Assembly (NCBI GenBank): GCA_015655225.1
Contig: JAATFK010000400.1
Location: 1 to 15,580, forward strand
Direction of reading: 5' to 3'
DNA from: Solirubrobacterales bacterium
GTDB taxonomy: Bacteria; Actinomycetota; Thermoleophilia; Solirubrobacterales; Solirubrobacteraceae
Length of the DNA: 15,580 nt
The notes beneath the pieces are model-generated. The model searched no databases. It saw only the letters and a program-made list of their open reading frames with translations, and was not told where the DNA came from. The number at the start of each line of letters is the position of its first letter. Within the stretch, counting starts at the first letter, position 1. This document shows, piece by piece, positions 1,813 to 12,402 of this stretch. Both the position numbers and the translations under genes were made by a program.

Positions 1813-2958
1813 TCAGCGCAGCTGGTTGAAGAACTCGGCGAGGTCGGCGGCGAGCAGCGCGGGCTCCTCGTAGGCGGCGAAGTGGCCGCCGCGCGGGAAG
1901 CGGTTGTAGCGCACCACGTCGTGGATCCGCTCGGCCCATGCCCGCGGCGGCAGGACGAGATCGTGCGGGAACACCGCCACAGCCGTCGGCACGTCGCCGG
2001 TCGTGCCCGGCGCGGCGGGACGGACAAAGTGGTCGTGGTAGGGACGAAACGACGACGCGATCGTGTTCGTCAGCCAGTACAGCGACGCCCAGGTCAGGAT
2101 CTCGTCCTCGTCGAAGCGCGTGAAGACGTCCCCGCCGCAGTCGCTCCAGCCGCGCAGCTTCTCGACCACCCAGGCGAGCCAGCCGACCGGCGAGTCGGCC
2201 AGCGCATAGGCCAGCGTGAGCGGCTTGGTCTGCTGCTCGTGCATGTAGCCGCCCTCGCTCCGCGTCCAGCTGGCGCGCTGCTGGACGAACGCGACCTCCT
2301 CCTCGCTGAGGGGCGGGTTCGTCATGTCGGGGGGCTCGCCGACCGCGAGCAGGTGGATCCCGATCAGCGCGTCGCCGTGGCGACGCGCGAGGCGAGCCGT
2401 GATCCCCGCCCCGAGGTCCCCGCCATGCGCCCCGTAGCGGGCGTAGCCGAGCACGTCGGTCATCAGCCGGTGCCACAGCTCAGGCGTCGACCAGTCGTCC
2501 GTCAGCTCGGACCGCTGCGCCGAGAAGCCGAAGCCCGGCAACGAGGGAACGACCACGTCGAACGACGCCCGGCCCGCCTCGCCGTGAAGCGACGGCTGCG
2601 CCAGCCGCTGCGCGAGCGCGGTCAGCTCCAGGAACGAGCCCGGCCAGCCGTGACTCAGCAGCAGCGGCGCCGCAGGGTCGCCCTCGCCGCGGAAGTGGAG
2701 GAAGTGCACCGGCGCGCCGTCGAGGTCGACGAGGAAGTGCGGCAGCTCGTTGATCGCCGCCTCCCGCGCCCGCCAGTCGTAGCCGCCGCTCCAGCGCTCG
2801 GCGAGGCGCCGCAGCACCGCCGTGTCGGTGCCGTTCGCCCAGCCGCCGTCGTCCGGTGTCGGCTCGGGCCAGCGGGTCGCGGCGACGCGCGCGCGCAGGT
2901 CGGCGAGCGCCGCGTCGGGGATCGCGGCGGTGAACGGCTGGGGCGTCGGGATGCTCAT
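1813..2958 (-). CDS. Epoxide hydrolase family protein (EHN domain, alpha/beta fold)
   Basis: A 381-residue protein of the microsomal-type epoxide hydrolase family, which opens an epoxide to a diol through an aspartyl ester intermediate. The EHN N-terminal domain covers roughly residues 5-115 and begins with the typical FTAAIPDAALADLRARVAATRW region. Catalytic features are the oxyanion motif HGWPGS (103-108), the nucleophile D181 in HGGDLG (normally HGGDWG), likely proton-donor Y307 in RPYHDHF, H359 in GGHFAAYEEP, and an acidic residue probably at D333. Length is normal for the family. ATG 2958 follows a GAGAGG ribosome site and overlaps the stop of the upstream hydrolase gene (ATGA), so it is translationally coupled. 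It is the last gene of the seven-gene operon; no terminator separates it from convergent GntR-A. The true substrate may be a carboxylic or other ester rather than an epoxide; the family is broad. Confidence 0.87.
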   Translation of the reverse strand: MSIPTPQPFTAAIPDAALADLRARVAATRWPEPTPDDGGWANGTDTAVLRRLAERWSGGYDWRAREAAINELPHFLVDLDGAPVHFLHFRGEGDPAAPLLLSHGWPGSFLELTALAQRLAQPSLHGEAGRASFDVVVPSLPGFGFSAQRSELTDDWSTPELWHRLMTDVLGYARYGAHGGDLGAGITARLARRHGDALIGIHLLAVGEPPDMTNPPLSEEEVAFVQQRASWTRSEGGYMHEQQTKPLTLAYALADSPVGWLAWVVEKLRGWSDCGGDVFTRFDEDEILTWASLYWLTNTIASSFRPYHDHFVRPAAPGTTGDVPTAVAVFPHDLVLPPRAWAERIHDVVRYNRFPRGGHFAAYEEPALLAADLAEFFNQLR

Positions 2959-4235
2959 CGGACCTCTCTCTCGCTGGTGTCTCGCAGCGAAAGCAGCCGG
3001 TCGAGGACCAGCCCCTTGCGCAGCGCGTCATGCTCGAGCTCGTCGCTGACCCAGGTTGCAGCACCGAGCGACTCGGCGGTCGCGAGCGACATCTCGGCGT
3101 CGACGAACAGATCGTGCCGATAGACGACCGCGCTCACGGGCACATCGTTGCGGCGCAGCACGTTGAGGTCGAACAGGCTCGGCCACTCCCTCCAGGCGGC
3201 CAGCTCGTGCGCGACCGCCGCGAACGGCACGAGCGTCGGGTCCTCCTCGAACATCCACGGGTAGATCATCTCGCCCGTGAAGAACGGCGGCCCCGTTACT
3301 CCCTCGGCCAGCGCGGGGAACTCGCCGCGAATGCGATGTGCCGACCAGGCCGTCGCCGCGTGGTCGGCGTACAGCGGCTCGTGCAGCAGCGCGAACAGCG
3401 GGCGGCCGGCGAGCGTGACGATCTGGTCCAGCCGCGTGGTGAACGCGTCGCCGGGATCCGGGTCCCGCGCGCCGGCCGGGAAGGCGAGCTCCAGCAGGAA
3501 GTGGAGGTCCTCCATGCCGGTCGTCAGCCCGAGCGCGATCCCGGCCGACTGCAGCCGGCGGACCGTGAGCCGCTCGCCGCGCGCCATCCTGACGTCGTGC
3601 GCTTCGAGGTGGGAAGCCAGCCGCCCGACGCGCTCGGCGTCCTGCGGGAAGGCGTCGAAGTACGCCTGTCCGCGGCGGGCCACCCGCGGGTAGGCGGCGC
3701 GGTAGACGGCGTCGGCGTCGGCGGTGAGCGACGGCAGCCCGCCGCTGATCAGCACCTCGCGCAGCCCGTGCGGAGCCAGCGACAGGTACGTCACGGCACA
3801 CCAGCCGCCGAAGCTCTGCCCGAGCACCGTCCACGGGACGTCGTCCTGGAGGGCCCGCCGCAGCAGCTCGGCGTCACGCACGATCGCGTCCGCACGGAAG
3901 CTCGTGAGGTACGCGGCCTGGTCGCGCGGCGTTCCCATCCCTGCGAGCGCGGCCGCCGTCACAGGTGAGCTGCGCCCGGTGCCGCGCGCGTCGAGGAGAA
4001 CGACCCGGAACTCCTCCAGTGCGCGCGGCAGCCAGCCGTGCCCGGCCGTCGGGCGGTCGGAGGGAAGGCCGGGGCCGCCCTGCAGGAACAGCAGGCGCGG
4101 GAGCTTCCGGTCGACGAGATCCGCGCGCACGACCTCGCGCGCGAACAGCTGCAACTGATCCCCGGCGGGCCGGTCGTAGCGCAGCGGGACCGTCAGCTCG
4201 TGGTCGGCCCAGGACAGCCCCGCGAGCGTCGTCAC
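2955..4235 (-). CDS. Alpha/beta hydrolase of peptidase family S33 (proline iminopeptidase-like)
   Basis: A 426-residue cytoplasmic serine hydrolase. It shows the S33 hallmarks: oxyanion-hole motif QGGPG (52-56, usually HGGPG), DARGTGRS (82-89, compare DQRGTGRS), nucleophile S141 in GQSFGGW, a late acid at D375 or D379 (YRHDLFVDAE), and H402 in LEHDALRKG. Between the nucleophile and the acid is the long helical cap typical of prolyl and tripeptidyl aminopeptidases. Family members remove N-terminal proline or act on other small amides and esters. No signal peptide is seen. The GTG start at 4235 overlaps the hyuB stop by four bases (GTGA), and the gene's own stop overlaps the epoxide hydrolase start. 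Placed after the ring-opening HyuAB genes, it may hydrolyse an amide or ester of the opened product; that role is inference. Confidence 0.85.
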   Translation of the reverse strand: MTTLAGLSWADHELTVPLRYDRPAGDQLQLFAREVVRADLVDRKLPRLLFLQGGPGLPSDRPTAGHGWLPRALEEFRVVLLDARGTGRSSPVTAAALAGMGTPRDQAAYLTSFRADAIVRDAELLRRALQDDVPWTVLGQSFGGWCAVTYLSLAPHGLREVLISGGLPSLTADADAVYRAAYPRVARRGQAYFDAFPQDAERVGRLASHLEAHDVRMARGERLTVRRLQSAGIALGLTTGMEDLHFLLELAFPAGARDPDPGDAFTTRLDQIVTLAGRPLFALLHEPLYADHAATAWSAHRIRGEFPALAEGVTGPPFFTGEMIYPWMFEEDPTLVPFAAVAHELAAWREWPSLFDLNVLRRNDVPVSAVVYRHDLFVDAEMSLATAESLGAATWVSDELEHDALRKGLVLDRLLSLRDTSEREVR

Positions 4236-5968
4236 CTCTCTACCTCGCGCAGCGCCCGCCGTGCCCGCGTCGCGTCGGCGTCCGCCGCGAGCGATCGCGG
4301 ATCGACGACGACCCCGTAGCGCGCCGCCGCCGCCGGGACGGTGACGAACCCGAGGCGGACGTCGTTGGCGACCTCTGCCTCAGGCCGCTCGAGCGGGTCG
4401 CCGAAGCCCCCGCCGCCACCGGTGCGCACCGTCACGAGCGTCTCGGCCGGGAGCGGCAGCTGGTTGACCTTGAGCCCGCGCCACTCGCCGTCGGGACCGA
4501 CGGCCTCGCACGCCGGGCCGTCTCCGGACTCGCCTCCGAGCAGCCCCCACGCCGGCGTGTGCGAGCGCTCGAACCAGAGCGAGACCTTCATGTCCTCGCG
4601 CAGCCGGTAGCCGCGGACGACGCCGCAGCCCCCGCGGTGGCGACCGGGCCCGCCGCTGTCGGGCCGCAGCGCGAACCGCTCGATGCGAACGGGGAACTTG
4701 GTCTCGAACACCTCGACGGGCACGTTCTTGAAGGATCCGTTGTTGATGCTGATGAGCGCGCTCTCGCCGTCGCCGTGCGGGTGGCCGCCCCAGCCGCCGG
4801 CCGTCGGCTCCGAGGAGACCCACACCTGCCCGTGGTCGCGCTCGCCCGTCAGCGCGATCACCATCGAGTCGCCGAAGTCCGGGGCGACGGCCGCGTCGCC
4901 GAGCGCCGGCGCGAGCGCCGAGATCATCAGCGTCGCGACCAACCCGAGCGAGGTGAAGTACCACTCGCACGGGCTCGGCTCGCGCGCGTTGAGGAAGCAC
5001 TCGTCGGGGACGACCACCTCCAGCGGAGCGAACGCCCCGCCAGTGATCGACAGGTTCGGCTTGATCAGCGACTTGTAGGCGAGCTGGATCGCCGAGACCG
5101 TCTGCGCATAGCCGCAGTTGACGGGGCCGCGCTGCGGGCCGGCGGTCCCGGTGAGGTCGACCGTCATGGTGTCGCCCGCGATCGTGACGGCGACCTCGAC
5201 GGGGATCGGCTGGTCACCGACGCCGTCGTCGTCGAGCGCGCCGCTCGCCGTGTAGCGGCCGTCCGGAAGGTCCGTCACCGCTTGTCGGTGGATCTCCTCC
5301 GCCTGGGCGAAGATGTTGGCCACCGCCGCGTCGAAGACATCCGTCCCGACGCGCGCGAGCAGCGACTGCATCCGCTTCTCGCCAGTCCGGCAGGCCGCGA
5401 CCTGGGCGTAGAAGTCGCCGATCAGCTCGTAGCCGAGCCGGCTGTTGCGGCGCAGGAAGTCGATCCACTCCTCGACCGGCTCGTAGTTGCGGATCACGCG
5501 CGTCGGCGCCAGGCGAAAGCCCTCCTGGTAGACGTCGAAGGAGAGCATGGTCGTGCCCGGGTCCTTGCCGCCGACGTCCTGCCAGTGGGCGCGCGTCGCC
5601 GCGAAGCCGATCAGCTCGCCCTCGTGGAAGATCGGACCGAAGACCGTCACGTCGTGCTAGTGGCTGCCCTGCACGTAGGAGTCGTTCATGATCACGATGT
5701 CCCCGGGCTCGAACCACTCCGGTCCGTGGAGGTCGAGCGTGTGCTGGACGCAGACCTCGAGGTTGCAGAGGAACAGCGGCACGCCGGTCGACTGACCCAG
5801 CGGACGGGCGTGGCGGTCCATCAGCGCGACCGCACAGTCGCGCCCCTCGTAGATGATCGGCGTGTAGGCGGAGCGGAAGAGGGTCGCGTTCATGTCCTCG
5901 GCGCACGCCGACATGAAGTTCCGGATGACCTCGGTCGTAACGGGGTCAGCGAGCGATTGCATGGTCAT
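4232..5968 (-). pseudogene. hyuB: HyuB-type hydantoinase/oxoprolinase B subunit interrupted by an in-frame TAG
   Basis: HyuB partners HyuA in ATP-dependent hydrolysis or carboxylation of cyclic amides and ketones (N-methylhydantoinase, 5-oxoprolinase, acetophenone carboxylase families). ATG 5968 (alternative 5962) lies 2 bases after the hyuA stop with GGAG upstream. The frame encodes 103 residues ending NDSYVQGSH, then TAG at 5657-5659, then 474 codons beginning HDVTVFGPIF in the same frame. Read through, the protein would be 578 residues, the usual size, with RAHWQDVGG and the C-terminal GGGGGFGDP region intact. The amber falls in the conserved motif NDPYxxGTHLxDVT, at the position usually Leu. 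There is no frameshift or other decay. GTG 5650 could restart translation, but the product would lack conserved N-terminal sequence and has only a weak ribosome site. Possible explanations are a recent nonsense mutation, a sequencing error (TTG would give Leu) or readthrough. It is annotated as a possible pseudogene because the stop is what the sequence shows. Confidence 0.8.
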
Positions 5969-5970
5969 GG

Positions 5971-8007
5971 TCAGTCTCCGTTGCGGGTGAGCAGCAGGTG
6001 GCCGTCTTCGACGCGGCGGCCCGACCAGCCGGGCGGCAGCACCGTCGTCGCGGTCGTCTCCTCCACGATCGCGGGGCCGCGGACCTCGTCGTCGGGCCCG
6101 AGCGCGGTGCGCGAGACGATCGTGCTGTCGAGCCACTCGTCGCCGAAGCGGACGCGGCGCGTCGACCACGGCGTCGGCGCGGCGATCGGCGGCGCGGCCT
6201 CGCGCGGCCGGTCGAGGTCGCCGTGCAGCGTCACCTGCAGCCGCACGATCTCGATCGGCGCGCCCGGGTTCGAGTGGCCATAGCGCGCCTGGTAGGCCGC
6301 GTTGAACGCCTCCGTAACAGACGCCGCATGGAGCGTCCCGGCGGACAGCGGGACCGAGAGCGTGTACTCCTGGCCGGCGTAGCGCAGGTCGACCGAGCGC
6401 GAGCTGCGCCGCGCCTGCGGCGCGACGCCCTCGCGGTCGAGGAGGTCCATGCCCGTCGCCGTGAGCCGGGTATAGATCTCCTCGATCTGCGTCAGGTCGA
6501 CCTCGTCGAGGGGGACGAAGTGCGTCTCGACGAAGTCGTGGCGCACGTCGGTCTGAAGCATCCCCCACGCCGAGAACGTGCCGGGATGGGCCGGCACGAC
6601 GACCTCGTCGATCTCCAGCTCCTGGGCCAGCGCGGCGGCGTGCATCGGTCCCGCGCCGCCGTAGGCCACGAGGATGAAGTCGCGCGGATCGATCCCCCGC
6701 CGGACGGTCTGCGTGCGGATCGCGTCGGCCATCGCCGCGTTGATGATGTCGAGGATTCCCTGGGCCGTCTGGTCGGCCGACAGGCCGATCTCGGCGCCGA
6801 CCGCGGCGATCGCCGCGCGAGCCCCGTCGAGATCGAGGTCCATCCCACCTCCGGCGAACTGCCGCGAGTCGACGCGACCGAGCGCGAGGTTCGCGTCGGT
6901 CACCGTCGGCCGCGTGCCGCCCCGCCGGTAGCAGACCGGCCCCGGCGTCGAACCCGCGCTCTCGGGCCCGACCCGCAGCGCCGGCCCCTCCAGCCACGCG
7001 ATCGAGCCGCCGCCGGCGCCGATCCCCGTGATGTCGACGGCCGCCATCTGGATCGGCAAGCCGTCGAGCTCGGTCTCGCTGGAGACCGACGCCTCGCCGT
7101 CGACGATCAGGCTGACGTCGAACGACGTCCCACCCATGTCGACGCAGACGACGTTGTGGCGGCCGAGCCGCCGGCTGATCTCGCGGGCGCCGATCGCTCC
7201 CCCGACGGGGCCGGACAGGAGCGTCTGGATCGGCGCCGTTCGGGCGGTCGCGCCGGTCGTGACGCCGCCGTTGGACTGCATCACGTGCAACGGCGCGTCG
7301 TCACGCTCGAGCGCATTCATCAGCGTCGTCAGATAGCGCTCGACGACCGGCGCGATGTAGGCCGTCATCACGGTCGTCGACGCACGCGCGTACTCACGCC
7401 ACTCGGGCGAGATCCGGTGCGAGAGGACGACCGGGATCGCCAGCTGCTCACGTAGGATCGCCTCGACGGCGAGCTCGTGCTCCGGGCGCATGAAGCTGTA
7501 CAGCAGGCAGACGGCGACGGACTCGAGGCCGAGCCTACGGATCTGCTCGGCGATCGCCCGGACGCCGGCGACATCCAGCTCGCGATGGACGCTGCCGTCG
7601 GCGTCCATCCGCTCGGGGACGCCGAAGAGCCGGTCGGCCTCGATCAGGGGCGCGGCCTTGCGGTAGCGCAGGTCGAAGATGTCCTGCCGGTCGTTGCCGC
7701 CGATCAGGTAGGCCTGCTCGATCCCGTCGGTCATCAGCAGCGCGGTCTGTGCGCCGCGCCGCTCGAGCACCGCGTTGAGCCCGACCGTCGTGCCGTGGAC
7801 GAAGAACCGCATCGCGTCCTGGTCGGGCACGAAGCGGGCGAGCGCGTCGAGCACCGCCCGCGCGGGATCCTCACGCGTCGAGAGCACCTTCCCGGTGTCG
7901 ATGTGGCCGGTGATCGCGTCCTGGATCACGATGTCGGTGAACGTGCCGCCGATGTCGACGGAGACGCGGAAGCGCTGGCCAGCGGAGGCCATGGGTGAGG
8001 CGTGCAT
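5971..8007 (-). CDS. hyuA: HyuA-type hydantoinase/oxoprolinase A subunit (ATP-binding)
   Basis: A 678-residue subunit of the hydantoinase A/oxoprolinase family, which activates a cyclic amide or related carbonyl substrate with ATP. Visible motifs are the actin-like phosphate loops DIGGTFTD (18-25) and DMGGTSFD (290-297), HGTTVGLNAVL (71-81), MQSNGGV (243-249), SGPVGG (265-270) and GAGGGSIA (330-337), followed by a complete C-terminal domain. Length is normal. ATG 8007 is chosen because AGGAG lies 9 bases upstream; ATG 7992 is a second candidate. The gene begins 23 bases after the permease stop and is followed within 2 bases by hyuB, so the pair is co-translated. The exact reaction (hydantoin, oxoproline, caprolactam-like or ketone substrate) cannot be told from sequence. 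No N-carbamoyl hydrolase or allantoinase-type hydantoinase is nearby, so a classical hydantoin route is not supported. Confidence 0.9.
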   Translation of the reverse strand: MHASPMASAGQRFRVSVDIGGTFTDIVIQDAITGHIDTGKVLSTREDPARAVLDALARFVPDQDAMRFFVHGTTVGLNAVLERRGAQTALLMTDGIEQAYLIGGNDRQDIFDLRYRKAAPLIEADRLFGVPERMDADGSVHRELDVAGVRAIAEQIRRLGLESVAVCLLYSFMRPEHELAVEAILREQLAIPVVLSHRISPEWREYARASTTVMTAYIAPVVERYLTTLMNALERDDAPLHVMQSNGGVTTGATARTAPIQTLLSGPVGGAIGAREISRRLGRHNVVCVDMGGTSFDVSLIVDGEASVSSETELDGLPIQMAAVDITGIGAGGGSIAWLEGPALRVGPESAGSTPGPVCYRRGGTRPTVTDANLALGRVDSRQFAGGGMDLDLDGARAAIAAVGAEIGLSADQTAQGILDIINAAMADAIRTQTVRRGIDPRDFILVAYGGAGPMHAAALAQELEIDEVVVPAHPGTFSAWGMLQTDVRHDFVETHFVPLDEVDLTQIEEIYTRLTATGMDLLDREGVAPQARRSSRSVDLRYAGQEYTLSVPLSAGTLHAASVTEAFNAAYQARYGHSNPGAPIEIVRLQVTLHGDLDRPREAAPPIAAPTPWSTRRVRFGDEWLDSTIVSRTALGPDDEVRGPAIVEETTATTVLPPGWSGRRVEDGHLLLTRNGD

Positions 8008-8030
8008 GAAAATCGACTCCTGTTCCCGTG

Positions 8031-9005
8031 TCACCGGCGGCGGCCGGAGGCGGCGAGCGCCACCGCCGACACGATCACGATGCCGGTCACGAGGTTCTTG
8101 TAGAACTGATTGGCGCCGAGCAGATCGAAGCCGTTGCCGATCAGCGCGAGCAGGAAGACGCCGGTGAGCGTTCGCCACACGGCACCGGCGCCACCGTAGA
8201 TGCTGGTCCCGCCGAGGATCACGGCTGCGATCGCGTTCAGGGTGATGTCCGCGCCCTGCGTCGGCTGACCGCTGGAGACGCGCGAGACGAGGATCGCGCC
8301 GGCCACGCCGGCGGCCAGCCCGCTCGCGGCAAAGGTCATCACGTGGATCAAGTTGACGCGGATACCGGAGAGCGCGGCCGCCTCGGGGTTGCCGCCGACA
8401 GCGAACAGATGCCGGCCGGCAACCGTGCGGTTGAGCAGAAACATCATCAGCACGGCGAACACGCCGAGGACGATCGAGGCGACCGCGATCGGCCCGACGT
8501 CGTTCTGTCCCAGCGCGATGAAGGTCGAGTTGTCCACCGGGATCAGCGCCCCGTTCGTGAGCAGCAGCGCGAGGCCGCCATAGACGAGGCTCGTCGCGAG
8601 CGTGGCGAGGAACGAGTGCACTCGCAGCATCGTGATCACGAGGCCATTGATGACACCGAGCCCGAGGCCCGCGACGACGGCGGCGAGCAGCCCGACGATC
8701 GGCCCCTCGGCCCGGATCGCGAGCTGTGCGGCGATCACGTTCGTGACGGCTACGATCGCGCCGGTCGAGAGGTCGAAGCTGCCCGCGATGATGACGAGCG
8801 TCGCCGCACACGCGACGATCGCGGTGGGCGCCTGTTGACTGACGATGTTGAGCAGGTTCGCCGAGGTGAAGAACGCCGAGGAGGCGACGCTCAACACGAT
8901 GAAGAGCACGACCAGGAGGATCAGTGCCGCGTAGTCGCGCGCGAAGGCCGCGATCGCGATGCTCGGTCGGCGCGCGGTGGGGAGTGCAGCGGTGCCAGTG
9001 GTCAC
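8031..9005 (-). CDS. Sugar-type ABC transporter permease (RbsC-like)
   Basis: A 324-residue inner-membrane permease of the CUT2/BPD_transp_2 family, most probably a homodimer forming the channel. It has a short basic cytoplasmic N-terminus, then many hydrophobic segments (first at about residues 26-45), the family motif AGSFDLSTGAIVA (about 74-86) and AVGGNPEAAALSGI on the cytoplasmic loop that contacts the ATPase. Length is typical for RbsC homologues. The start is GTG 9005, whose bases overlap the ATPase stop (GTGA), with AAGGA 6 bases upstream. It lies between the ATPase and hyuA, so import and HyuAB chemistry are probably expressed together. CUT2 systems carry pentoses, hexoses, autoinducer-2, purine nucleosides or other polar small molecules; the cargo is not evident. 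Confidence 0.93.
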   Translation of the reverse strand: MTTGTAALPTARRPSIAIAAFARDYAALILLVVLFIVLSVASSAFFTSANLLNIVSQQAPTAIVACAATLVIIAGSFDLSTGAIVAVTNVIAAQLAIRAEGPIVGLLAAVVAGLGLGVINGLVITMLRVHSFLATLATSLVYGGLALLLTNGALIPVDNSTFIALGQNDVGPIAVASIVLGVFAVLMMFLLNRTVAGRHLFAVGGNPEAAALSGIRVNLIHVMTFAASGLAAGVAGAILVSRVSSGQPTQGADITLNAIAAVILGGTSIYGGAGAVWRTLTGVFLLALIGNGFDLLGANQFYKNLVTGIVIVSAVALAASGRRR

Positions 9006-10549
9006 AGTGGGTCCTTGTTCAGTGTGCGGTCCGTCGTGCGTGCGATGTCGAAGAGCGCGAACAGCACGTCGTCTGCGGTGGTGGTTGCCGGATCGACCTC
9101 GCCAACGGTCGCGCCGTCACGCATGAGATAGACGCGGTGAGATAGCCCAAGCACCTCTTCCAGCTCGCTGGAGATCAGCAGCACGGCCGCGCCTCTCGCC
9201 GCCAGTTGGGCGATCAGCCGGTAGATGTGCACGCGCGCGCCGACGTCGACGCCGCGGGTCGGCTCGTCGAGCAGCACGACCCGCGGGGAGATCGTCATCC
9301 ACTTGCCGAAGAGCACCTTCTGCTGGTTGCCGCCGGAGAGGTCGACGACCGCGTGGCCGGGTTCGTCGGGCGTGATCTGCAGCTCATCGATCATCTTGGC
9401 CGCGAGCGCGCGCTCGGCACGGTCGGAGACCGCGCCGCGTCGGCGCAGCCGCGACGCGGCCAGCAGGCCGACGTTCCGCTGCACGTCCTGGGTCATGACG
9501 AGCCCCTGCGACTTGCGGTCCTCCGGGATGAACGCGATCCCGCGGCGGATCGAGCGCAGCGGCGAGCGGGCCGGGAGCGGCTCGCCGTCGACCAGGATCT
9601 CGCCGCCCTCCAGGCGGTCCGCGCCGAAGACGACACGGGCAACCTCGGTGCGTCCGCTGCCGACGAGTCCGGCGAGCCCGACGATCTCGCCGGGACGGAC
9701 ACGAAGCGAGACGTCGCGGACGACCGTGCCCGCTGAGACATTGCGCAACTCAAGCCGCGGCGAGGCCTCCGCGGAGACGAGCGGCTCGGGCGCGACGAAC
9801 GAGACGTCGGTGGCGCGGCCGAGCATGCTTTGGACGATGCTCTCCGCGCTCTCGCCGTCGGTGGGGCCGGTGCGGACGAGCTCGCCGTCGCGGAGGATCG
9901 TGAGGCGGTCGCAGACGCCGAGCACGGCGCTGAGGAAATGCGTCACGTAGACGACCAACCGCCCCTCATCCCGCAGGCTCGCGATCACGGCGTGGAGCCG
10001 CTCGACCTCGTTCGCGGTCAGCGAGCTGGTCGGCTCGTCCATGACGATCACGCGCGCGTCGCGCGCGAGCGCTCGCATGATCTCGACCTTCTGCTGGTCG
10101 GCCAGCCGCAGATCCCCGACGCGAGCGGTCGGCGCGAGTCCCAGCCCCCAGCGCTGCTCGAGCGCCTCGAACCGCTGCTCGAGCCCGCCCGTGAGGACGC
10201 CGAGCCGCGCCGGCTCGATGCCGAGGAAGACGTTCTCGGCGACCGTCCGGTCGGGAACCAGCGACAGCTCCTGCTGGATCGTCGCGACACCGTGCCCGAG
10301 CGCCTGCCGCGTCGACCAGCCTCTGGTGACGTGACCGGCGACCTCGAGCGTGCCGGCGTCCGGCCGGTACACGCCGCCGATGATCTTCCCGAGGGTCGAC
10401 TTGCCCGCGCCATTCTGGCCGACGAGCGCGTGGACCTCTCCCGCGTGCAGGTCGAGCGAGACGTCCCGCAGCACGGTGTTGGGTCCGAACCGCTTCGTGA
10501 CCTTGGTCAGCCGCACGGCCGGACCCGACGTGGGCGTCAGCCCGACCAC
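9002..10549 (-). CDS. Sugar-type ABC transporter ATP-binding protein with two ABC domains (RbsA-like)
   Basis: A 515-residue ATPase with two ABC modules. Domain 1 has Walker A GQNGAGKST (44-52), the signature-region variant RLADQQKVEI (148-157) common in this family, and Walker B VIVMDEP (167-173). Domain 2 has the degenerate Walker A GLVGSGRTE (294-302), a canonical LSGGNQQKV signature (404-412) and Walker B VVLLDEPTRGVD (424-435). This pattern, with one degenerate site, is normal for RbsA/MglA/XylG proteins. GTG 10549 overlaps the end of the solute-binding protein gene by 13 bases; GTG 10516 would give 504 residues and is equally plausible, since neither has a clear ribosome site. The stop overlaps the permease start. 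It energises import of the substrate bound by the neighbouring lipoprotein. Confidence 0.92.
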   Translation of the reverse strand: MVGLTPTSGPAVRLTKVTKRFGPNTVLRDVSLDLHAGEVHALVGQNGAGKSTLGKIIGGVYRPDAGTLEVAGHVTRGWSTRQALGHGVATIQQELSLVPDRTVAENVFLGIEPARLGVLTGGLEQRFEALEQRWGLGLAPTARVGDLRLADQQKVEIMRALARDARVIVMDEPTSSLTANEVERLHAVIASLRDEGRLVVYVTHFLSAVLGVCDRLTILRDGELVRTGPTDGESAESIVQSMLGRATDVSFVAPEPLVSAEASPRLELRNVSAGTVVRDVSLRVRPGEIVGLAGLVGSGRTEVARVVFGADRLEGGEILVDGEPLPARSPLRSIRRGIAFIPEDRKSQGLVMTQDVQRNVGLLAASRLRRRGAVSDRAERALAAKMIDELQITPDEPGHAVVDLSGGNQQKVLFGKWMTISPRVVLLDEPTRGVDVGARVHIYRLIAQLAARGAAVLLISSELEEVLGLSHRVYLMRDGATVGEVDPATTTADDVLFALFDIARTTDRTLNKDPL

Positions 10550-11613
10550 TGGCCGGTGAAGCTCGGGTGCGCGCTGAGCACCTGCTTGGTCAGGACCAGC
10601 GGGACGGGCGCGACCTTGTCGAGGTTGATCGCGGTCTGGTAGGACTGGCCGCGCAGCTTGCGGACGACCTGGTCGAGCGCGATGCTCCCAGCGGTGCCCG
10701 GGAAGTTGCCGACCGTCAGATTCCAGTCGCCCGCGCGCACGGCCGCGACGCCCTGCTTCGTGGCGCCGAGGCTGTTGATCACGAGCGCCCCGCTCTTGAC
10801 CATCTGCGGCACGTTCCAGCCCGCCTTCGTCAGCGCGATCTGCGACGCGACCGTCGACTGCTCGGCGGCCGACAGCAGGACGTCGAACTTGGGATGCGCC
10901 TGCAGGATGTTCGACATCACCGTCAGCGACGTGTTGCGGTCGTAGTTGCCTTGCCCCGTCGCGACGATCTGGATGTTCGGGTGCGACTTGAAGACGTCTC
11001 TGTACGCCTGGTCGCGGATCTTGTCGAACGGGTACTGCAGGCCGCCGATGAACACGACGACGCGACAGGGGTTCTTGTTCGCGCATGCCGCGACGACCTG
11101 CTGGGCCTGGAGAGTCGTCTCGTAGGCGGGATCGGCGACGACGCTGATGACGCCGGGCACCTGAGGCGCGATCTGGCGCAGGCTCGGCCCAAGCGGGTTG
11201 AGGACGTTCGCGACCACCGTCCCCGACTTCACGAGCGTCTTCACGGCCGGTGCCATGCCGACGGTGTCGTTGGCCATCACGACGGCGCCGTTGTACTGCT
11301 TCGCGGATGCCGCCGTCTGCGCCTGGCTGAACTGGGTCGTCGCGTTGAAGTTGCCGTCGAGCTCGGTGAGCTGGACGTTGCCGAGTCTCTTCGCCTCCGT
11401 CTGCATCGACGTCCAGACGGCGTCCGCGAACCCGTTGGCGGAAGCCGATGCGAAGAAGGCGATCTTCAGCGTCTTGCCGGCCGCCGCTCCGGAGCCCGAG
11501 GCGGACGTCGACCCGCTGCTGGAGCTTCCACAGCCGGCTGTGCCGAGCCCGGCGGCAGCGAGCACCCCAAGCACGGCGGAGAGCTTCGTGAATCTCTTGC
11601 CTGTCACCGACAT
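10537..11613 (-). CDS. Sugar-type ABC transporter solute-binding lipoprotein (periplasmic-binding-protein-like)
   Basis: A 358-residue extracytoplasmic receptor. The N-terminus is a lipoprotein signal: basic KRFTK, a hydrophobic core (about 11-24) and lipobox TAGC with lipidated C28, then a Ser/Gly-rich tether. The mature part has the two-lobed Peripla_BP_4 (RbsB-like) pattern, beginning KTLKIAFFASASANGFADAV, with Gln/Asp/Asn positions consistent with a polar ligand. ATG 11613 is preceded by GGAGG with a 3-base spacer. It is the first gene of the seven-gene operon, as expected for the most abundantly needed component, and its promoter region is shared with divergent GntR-B. A CxxxxxC pair (CANKNPC, mid-protein) might form a disulfide. 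Ligand class is uncertain; the family binds monosaccharides, nucleosides and related compounds. Confidence 0.9.
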   Translation of the reverse strand: MSVTGKRFTKLSAVLGVLAAAGLGTAGCGSSSSGSTSASGSGAAAGKTLKIAFFASASANGFADAVWTSMQTEAKRLGNVQLTELDGNFNATTQFSQAQTAASAKQYNGAVVMANDTVGMAPAVKTLVKSGTVVANVLNPLGPSLRQIAPQVPGVISVVADPAYETTLQAQQVVAACANKNPCRVVVFIGGLQYPFDKIRDQAYRDVFKSHPNIQIVATGQGNYDRNTSLTVMSNILQAHPKFDVLLSAAEQSTVASQIALTKAGWNVPQMVKSGALVINSLGATKQGVAAVRAGDWNLTVGNFPGTAGSIALDQVVRKLRGQSYQTAINLDKVAPVPLVLTKQVLSAHPSFTGQWSG

Positions 11614-11635
11614 GATCCTCCGTCTCGGCTTTACC

Positions 11636-11730: not shown

Positions 11731-12402
11731 ATGTCCGACTCCTCCGATGCGCACGTACGAGAGCTGGGGGCGCTGCCGAGCCGTCGAGCACAGGTAACGG
11801 ACGCCCTGCGGGGCGCGATCGTTGCCGGCGACCTCGATACGGGTGTCGTCTACTCGGCGCCCGCGCTGGCCTCCCAGCTCGGCGTCTCGCCCACCCCGGT
11901 GCGGGAGGCGATGATGTCCCTCGCCGGCGAGGGCCTGATCGAGATCGTCCGCAACAAGGGCTTCCGCGTCGTCGAGCCGACCGAGCGCGAGCTCGACGAG
12001 ATGCTCGAGCTGCGCTTCCTGCTGGAGGTGCCGGCCGTCGCGAAGGTGACCAGATCCGGGATCGGTCCGGAGGACGCGGCGCGGCTGCACGAACTCGCGG
12101 GCGTGACCGTCGAGGCGGCGCGCAACCAGGACTTCGCGGGGCACGTGGCGGCCGACATCGCGTTCCACGTCGCGCTGCTGGAGCTGGGCGGCAACGAGCA
12201 GCTCGTAGCGCTCGTGCGCAGCCTCCGCAGCCGCTCGCGGCTCTTCGGGCTCTCCTCGCCCGCCAAGACGCAGTTCCTGCTCGAGACCGCCGACGAGCAC
12301 GAGCGGATCGTCGAGCTCGTCGGCGCGGGCGACGTGGCGGTCGCCGAGCGGTTCTTGCGACACCACATCGCCCACGTGCGCACCAGGTGGGCGCGCTCCT
12401 AG
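11731..12402 (+). CDS. GntR family (FadR/FCD subfamily) transcriptional regulator, GntR-B
   Basis: A 223-residue paralogue of GntR-A with the same layout: winged helix-turn-helix (about 18-85, LASQLGVSPTPVREA at 46-60, wing RNKGFRV at 74-80) and FCD domain (about 88-215) with D142, H146, H190 and H211/H212 as metal or ligand residues. Between residues 41 and 70 the two proteins differ only at positions 45, 63 and 66, so DNA specificity should be the same, while the FCD domains diverge more, suggesting different effectors or different sensitivity. ATG 11731 has no Shine-Dalgarno sequence and follows a -10 box by 7 bases. It is divergent from the transporter operon, the usual place for its local regulator. 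Its TAG stop (12400-12402) overlaps the TAG of the convergent kinase gene by two bases. Confidence 0.92.
   Translation: MSDSSDAHVRELGALPSRRAQVTDALRGAIVAGDLDTGVVYSAPALASQLGVSPTPVREAMMSLAGEGLIEIVRNKGFRVVEPTERELDEMLELRFLLEVPAVAKVTRSGIGPEDAARLHELAGVTVEAARNQDFAGHVAADIAFHVALLELGGNEQLVALVRSLRSRSRLFGLSSPAKTQFLLETADEHERIVELVGAGDVAVAERFLRHHIAHVRTRWARS

Follow-up and report, generated by a model that had tools for sequence, protein, structure and literature searches.

What does a lone in-frame amber codon in the core of an otherwise open gene stand for: a sequence error, a broken gene, or a codon that its owner reads through? The question is raised by a hyuB gene in a Solirubrobacterales bacterium. The window (by which we mean the whole stretch of 15,580 nucleotides that was analysed) is one whole contig of a draft assembly that totals 3,902,782 bases, is broken into 729 contigs and is 77% complete; this fragmentation and completeness suggest that the genome is a metagenome bin. 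Positions 4232-5968 of the minus strand form a single 578-codon hyuB frame with one internal TAG and a terminal TGA. The first-pass annotation held that the two halves of HyuB share one frame, that the TAG at codon 104 is the only defect, and that the genes downstream are intact; the translated frames bear out the first two points, the frame next downstream is open, and the relevant features are the following.

2955..4235, minus strand: alpha/beta hydrolase downstream of hyuB, its start overlapping the hyuB stop; open frame (Pfam and open reading frame list)
4232..5656, minus strand: hyuB codons 105-578 and the final TGA, open all along (translation)
5657..5659, minus strand: in-frame TAG, hyuB codon 104, between the putative metal ligands His103 and Asp106 (translation; ligands by alignment to CapB and an excerpt of PMC8453981)
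5660..5968, minus strand: hyuB codons 1-103, the 5' part before the stop (frame translation and Pfam)
5971..8016, minus strand: hyuA, the partner subunit; open frame (Pfam Hydant_A_N, Hydantoinase_A, Hydant_A_C)
8031..9005, minus strand: ABC permease (BPD_transp_2); open frame (Pfam)
9002..10549, minus strand: ABC ATPase with two ABC_tran stretches; open frame (Pfam)
10537..11616, minus strand: substrate-binding protein (Peripla_BP_4); open frame (Pfam)

Judged by its sequence, hyuB is a predicted ordinary ATP-dependent hydantoinase/oxoprolinase beta subunit. As in the HyuB/CapB family, the Pfam match is full-length (Hydantoinase_B, PF02538, residues 8-525 on model positions 1-519, spanning the TAG with the stop read as X, 519.7 bits against a cut-off of 26.8), the metal tetrad is found by alignment, and the partner gene hyuA is adjacent. 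Unlike the family, this hyuB does not have an uninterrupted frame, owing to the TAG at codon 104. Its matches among solved structures include N-methylhydantoinase (7hk5) and CapB, and it can be aligned with 6yra_B; it stays under the NCBIfam cut-off for caprolactamase (234 vs 1000 bits). Third-position GC is 0.93 on the 5' side of the TAG and 0.95 on the 3' side, while GC rises somewhat after it at the first position (0.61 to 0.71) and the second (0.42 to 0.50). Directly upstream lies hyuA, preceded by the genes of the ABC binding protein, ATPase and permease. Two GntR/FCD regulators (1165-1812 and 11734-12402) flank this cassette, and beside them are an FGGY kinase, a cupin and hydrolases; the cassette and its flanking genes are probably one catabolic island.

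Comparison with relatives is the most direct way to ask what codon 104 should be. A scan with HyuB as a single protein confirmed no relative; an alignment-based scan gave 180 named loci, and the best 80 of these 180 were read, in 82 rows (L049 to L130), two of which repeat two of the 80. Leucine occupies the position in 81 of the 82 rows, that is in 79 of the 80 distinct sequences among the best 80 of 180, the exception being a serine; the earlier statement that family members normally have Leu here is thus well founded. Every one of these 80 sequences has a sense codon at the site, and none has a stop. A single stop does occur in each of nine of the 82 alignments, always at positions 553-574, close to the end. 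In a looser set of 35 sequences that includes six paralogues from the same genome, Leu is found at codon 104 in 23, Gln in three, Ala, Met and Thr in two each, and Val, Pro and Ser in one each. The two nearest relatives among the best 80 of 180, both Acidimicrobiales metagenome-assembled genomes (MAGs) at 65-66% identity, have a sense codon at 104, and the histidine that comes next in our protein is also common to both, so the surroundings of the TAG are otherwise normal. The gene order ATPase-permease-hyuA-hyuB is shared by the window, L051 (Acidimicrobiales MAG JASHUY010000086, HyuB 66% identical to that of the window) and L054 (Candidatus Dormibacteraeota MAG CATPBP010000102); in these genomes hyuAB likewise adjoins an ABC transporter of the sugar type, and both have a Leu codon where the window has TAG.

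The TAG of hyuB does not stand by itself in its assembly. Whole-genome family searches returned internal stops in one of 89 ABC_tran, two of 31 AMP-binding, none of 55 MFS_1 and none of 86 adh_short_C2 matches, and in one (hyuB itself) of nine Hydantoinase_B matches. We then scanned 819 kb, made up of 89 fetched contig stretches and the window, for stops with strongly coding codons on both sides; this sample is not random, every contig having been fetched for a family-search match. The scan recovers 284 of 300 simulated stops placed in strongly coding frames. It gave 39 candidates (20 TAG, 17 TGA, 2 TAA). In nine of them, all in unrelated genes, homology runs across the stop, which is TAG in eight cases and TGA in one. 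The eight besides hyuB are listed here.

L161:4421: ABC ATPase, in-frame TAG
L159:4943: AMP-binding protein, in-frame TAG
L160:4536: AMP-binding protein, in-frame TAG
L198:378: PhnB-like protein, in-frame TAG (Pfam and a solved relative)
L281:1454: cyclase or isatin-hydrolase-like protein, in-frame TAG
L282:7620: phytoene-dehydrogenase-like protein, in-frame TAG (weak solved-structure match)
L164:10797: monooxygenase, in-frame TAG (weak solved-structure match)
L229:725: CHASE2 protein, in-frame TGA (Pfam)

In seven of the nine kept cases a Pfam domain spans the stop, and in six of the nine the match extends at least 6 residues beyond it. In L198 it reaches only 2 residues beyond, with a solved relative that aligns fully across; L282 and L164:10797 were kept on weak solved-structure matches alone; for L160 no solved-structure match was found at 1e-30. 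The remaining 30 of the 39 candidates were set aside, 21 because the Pfam match falls short of the stop and nine, unproven either way, because there is no Pfam match.

The same scan was applied to 400 kb each of two single-contig genomes, G002 of the same genus and G030 of another genus. Both controls are finished genomes, one from another species and the other from another genus, and the comparison therefore cannot tell an effect of species from one of assembly quality. Under the Pfam test alone, none of the 29 candidates in these 800 kb has a domain across the stop, a match below cut-off that begins one residue before a control stop (L261:4784) being left uncounted. Since the controls had the Pfam test only, the fair comparison is seven cases in 819 kb against none in 800 kb (P 0.008). 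However, four of the cases (hyuB, the ABC ATPase and the two AMP-binding genes) had come to light ahead of the scan, which is why their contigs were fetched; once these four contigs are left out, the figures become three in 773 kb against none in 800 kb (P 0.12). The contrast is weak without the cases known beforehand, and hence we regard an excess of stray stops relative to finished genomes as likely, not as proven. For AMP-binding genes, among the 150 of 203 matches listed, internal stops occur in 2 of 18 in our genome and in 0 of 132 in six other genomes of the genus (P 0.014), a comparison made after this family had already shown two cases.

Given these observations, we read the TAG as a probable stray substitution in the consensus of this much-fragmented draft. 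An error of assembly or base calling would be its likeliest source, and we place such an error somewhat above an even chance; failing that, it would be a nonsense mutation private to the strain that was sampled. Nonsense substitution errors do occur in draft metagenome-assembled genomes, and the present case resembles them: a lone in-frame stop, a frame that is otherwise open, and several unrelated genes affected. A literature search for stray stops in draft genomes found no paper. Genes in decay should carry indels besides stops. Frameshift-like places are not in excess here (two in 819 kb, against two in 400 kb of G002 and none in 400 kb of G030), although the detector recovers just 81 of 150 simulated cases and the places in our genome and in G002 are counted as flagged by the scan; stops without an excess of indels are a weak pointer to consensus errors. 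The error rate implied is about 4-5 per 10,000 bases if 90% of the sequence is coding, which is high for a consensus, and with thin coverage it would be conceivable.

The leucine codon itself complicates the picture. The first-pass annotation had suggested a change of TTG to TAG. This single step is possible, but codon usage disfavours it: of the six Leu codons a single one lies one step from TAG, it is rare in this genome (2.2 per 1000 codons), and TTG is found at codon 104 in one of the 82 rows of relatives. Leucine carries only 0.8-1.6% of the weight among one-step sources of TAG. This rarity counts against a simple one-step error.

The strongest competitor of the error is the mutation just mentioned, a genuine recent nonsense change that inactivates hyuB in the strain, with the rest of the cassette still open because too little time has elapsed. 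We consider it a serious possibility, short of an even chance. It accords with the TAG being the lone defect, with the open frames of hyuA and the transporter, and with the third-position GC that is maintained past the TAG; the eight further HyuB-family matches in the genome could also make one copy dispensable. The loss of one gene, however, leaves unexplained the stray stops in unrelated genes of the same assembly, and the frameshift-like places show no matching excess, weak as that test is. If the TAG is real, translation stops at residue 103, in the middle of the motif that binds the metal, and no active enzyme should result. Of the three options that had been offered at the outset, a base-call or assembly error and a recent inactivating mutation therefore both stand, whereas the third, readthrough of a regulated HyuB, has gained no support; taken over all its forms, a functional role of the TAG is in our opinion improbable.

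A programmed readthrough site should be kept as a stop in relatives, and it is not kept in any of the 80 read. A more general proposal is that this lineage has a suppressor tRNA for UAG, that amber mutations accumulate unpunished, and that HyuB is made by readthrough. Indeed, TAG accounts for eight of the nine stray stops, and the control stretches lack any candidate that passes the Pfam test. However, with the codon usage of this genome, random stop-making substitutions are expected to give TAG in 67-70% of cases, and at least eight TAG of nine would then arise with a probability of 0.15-0.19; the mostly-TAG pattern fits random substitution. The first four cases seen were all TAG, and we had considered a TAG-only pattern as meaningful; it was given up in view of this expectation and of the stray TGA then found in the CHASE2 gene L229, which counts against amber suppression. 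Nor do the residues aligned to the stray stops point to one amino acid inserted for TAG: they vary from gene to gene (Leu, Gln, Lys, Glu, Val, two of the alignments being weak).

No CUA anticodon is present among the 27 tRNAs found in this 77% complete genome, so that no suppressor tRNA of the kind that the first-pass annotation recommended looking for turned up among these 27. We estimate that about a third of the usual tRNA set is missing, and a CUA tRNA could be absent from the assembly. One tRNA-like gene of low score (L157:1501-1577, minus strand; 39.1 bits) has the anticodon UAG, which reads the Leu codon CUA; by our reading its variable arm is short, which is odd for a bacterial leucine tRNA. 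Going by the anticodon, it is not a UAG suppressor. At a contig end (L280:1501-1833, plus strand) there is an N-terminal fragment of RF1, scoring 69.5 bits as RF1 against 26.9 as RF2; full-length RF1 was not found in a search of the 77% complete assembly. L279 holds a probable release factor 2, complete and with GGQ; it carries an SPF motif, which we take to mark release factor 2.

Terminal TAG is also in ordinary use. It closes 250 of 683 strongly coding frames (37%) in 747 kb of the genome, compared with 107 of 333 in G002 (P 0.18 against our genome) and 47 of 179 in G030, and in the window it ends four of the 14 frames checked, namely both GntR genes, the kinase and a luciferase-like gene; for the first three this had been correctly noted. 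Loss of RF1 and depletion of terminal TAG are traits of code reassignment, which suppression does without, and neither is seen. Reassignment, judged unlikely from the start, and suppression were both probed through the tRNA set, RF1, the choice of terminal stops and the residues aligned to stray stops; none of these lines spoke for either. We thus find no support for a change of code or for amber suppression at large, and we hold suppression to be very unlikely. The same very low probability goes to its most specific form, in which the incomplete assembly missed the suppressor, TAG both ends genes in the ordinary way and is tolerated inside frames, and partial readthrough yields HyuB together with as many as seven further proteins. 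If suppression were true, this would be a notable natural bacterial amber-suppressor lineage.

The least probable proposal, to which we give next to no credence, is a split HyuB, in which a 103-residue piece reassembles with a piece restarted at the in-frame GTG three codons past the TAG (codon 107, 5648-5650, the earliest possible restart); we rejected it on metal-ligand grounds, because the cut parts His103 from Asp106 and the restarted piece would lack residues 104-106, Asp106 included, and aligned relatives show no gap at the TAG site. The ligands in question (Asp, His, Asp, His) are D44, H103, D106 and H128, invariant in an alignment of eight sequences, and the retention of all four speaks for a stray substitution; by our reading of the alignment to CapB and an excerpt of PMC8453981, they are equivalent to Asp41, His99, Asp102 and His124 of CapB, whose metal-ligand alanine mutants are inactive according to the same excerpt. 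The TAG splits the HxxD metal-ligand motif, and neither fragment alone should be active.

We return to the stray substitution. To account for the TAG, an error in the sequence or a plainly defective copy of the gene is far more probable than any novelty in how codons are read. The case calls for caution: an isolated in-frame stop of a draft genome should be weighed against the stray stops of that very assembly. Where a genome is rich in GC, the stops made by random substitution are mostly TAG, a pattern that mimics amber recoding.
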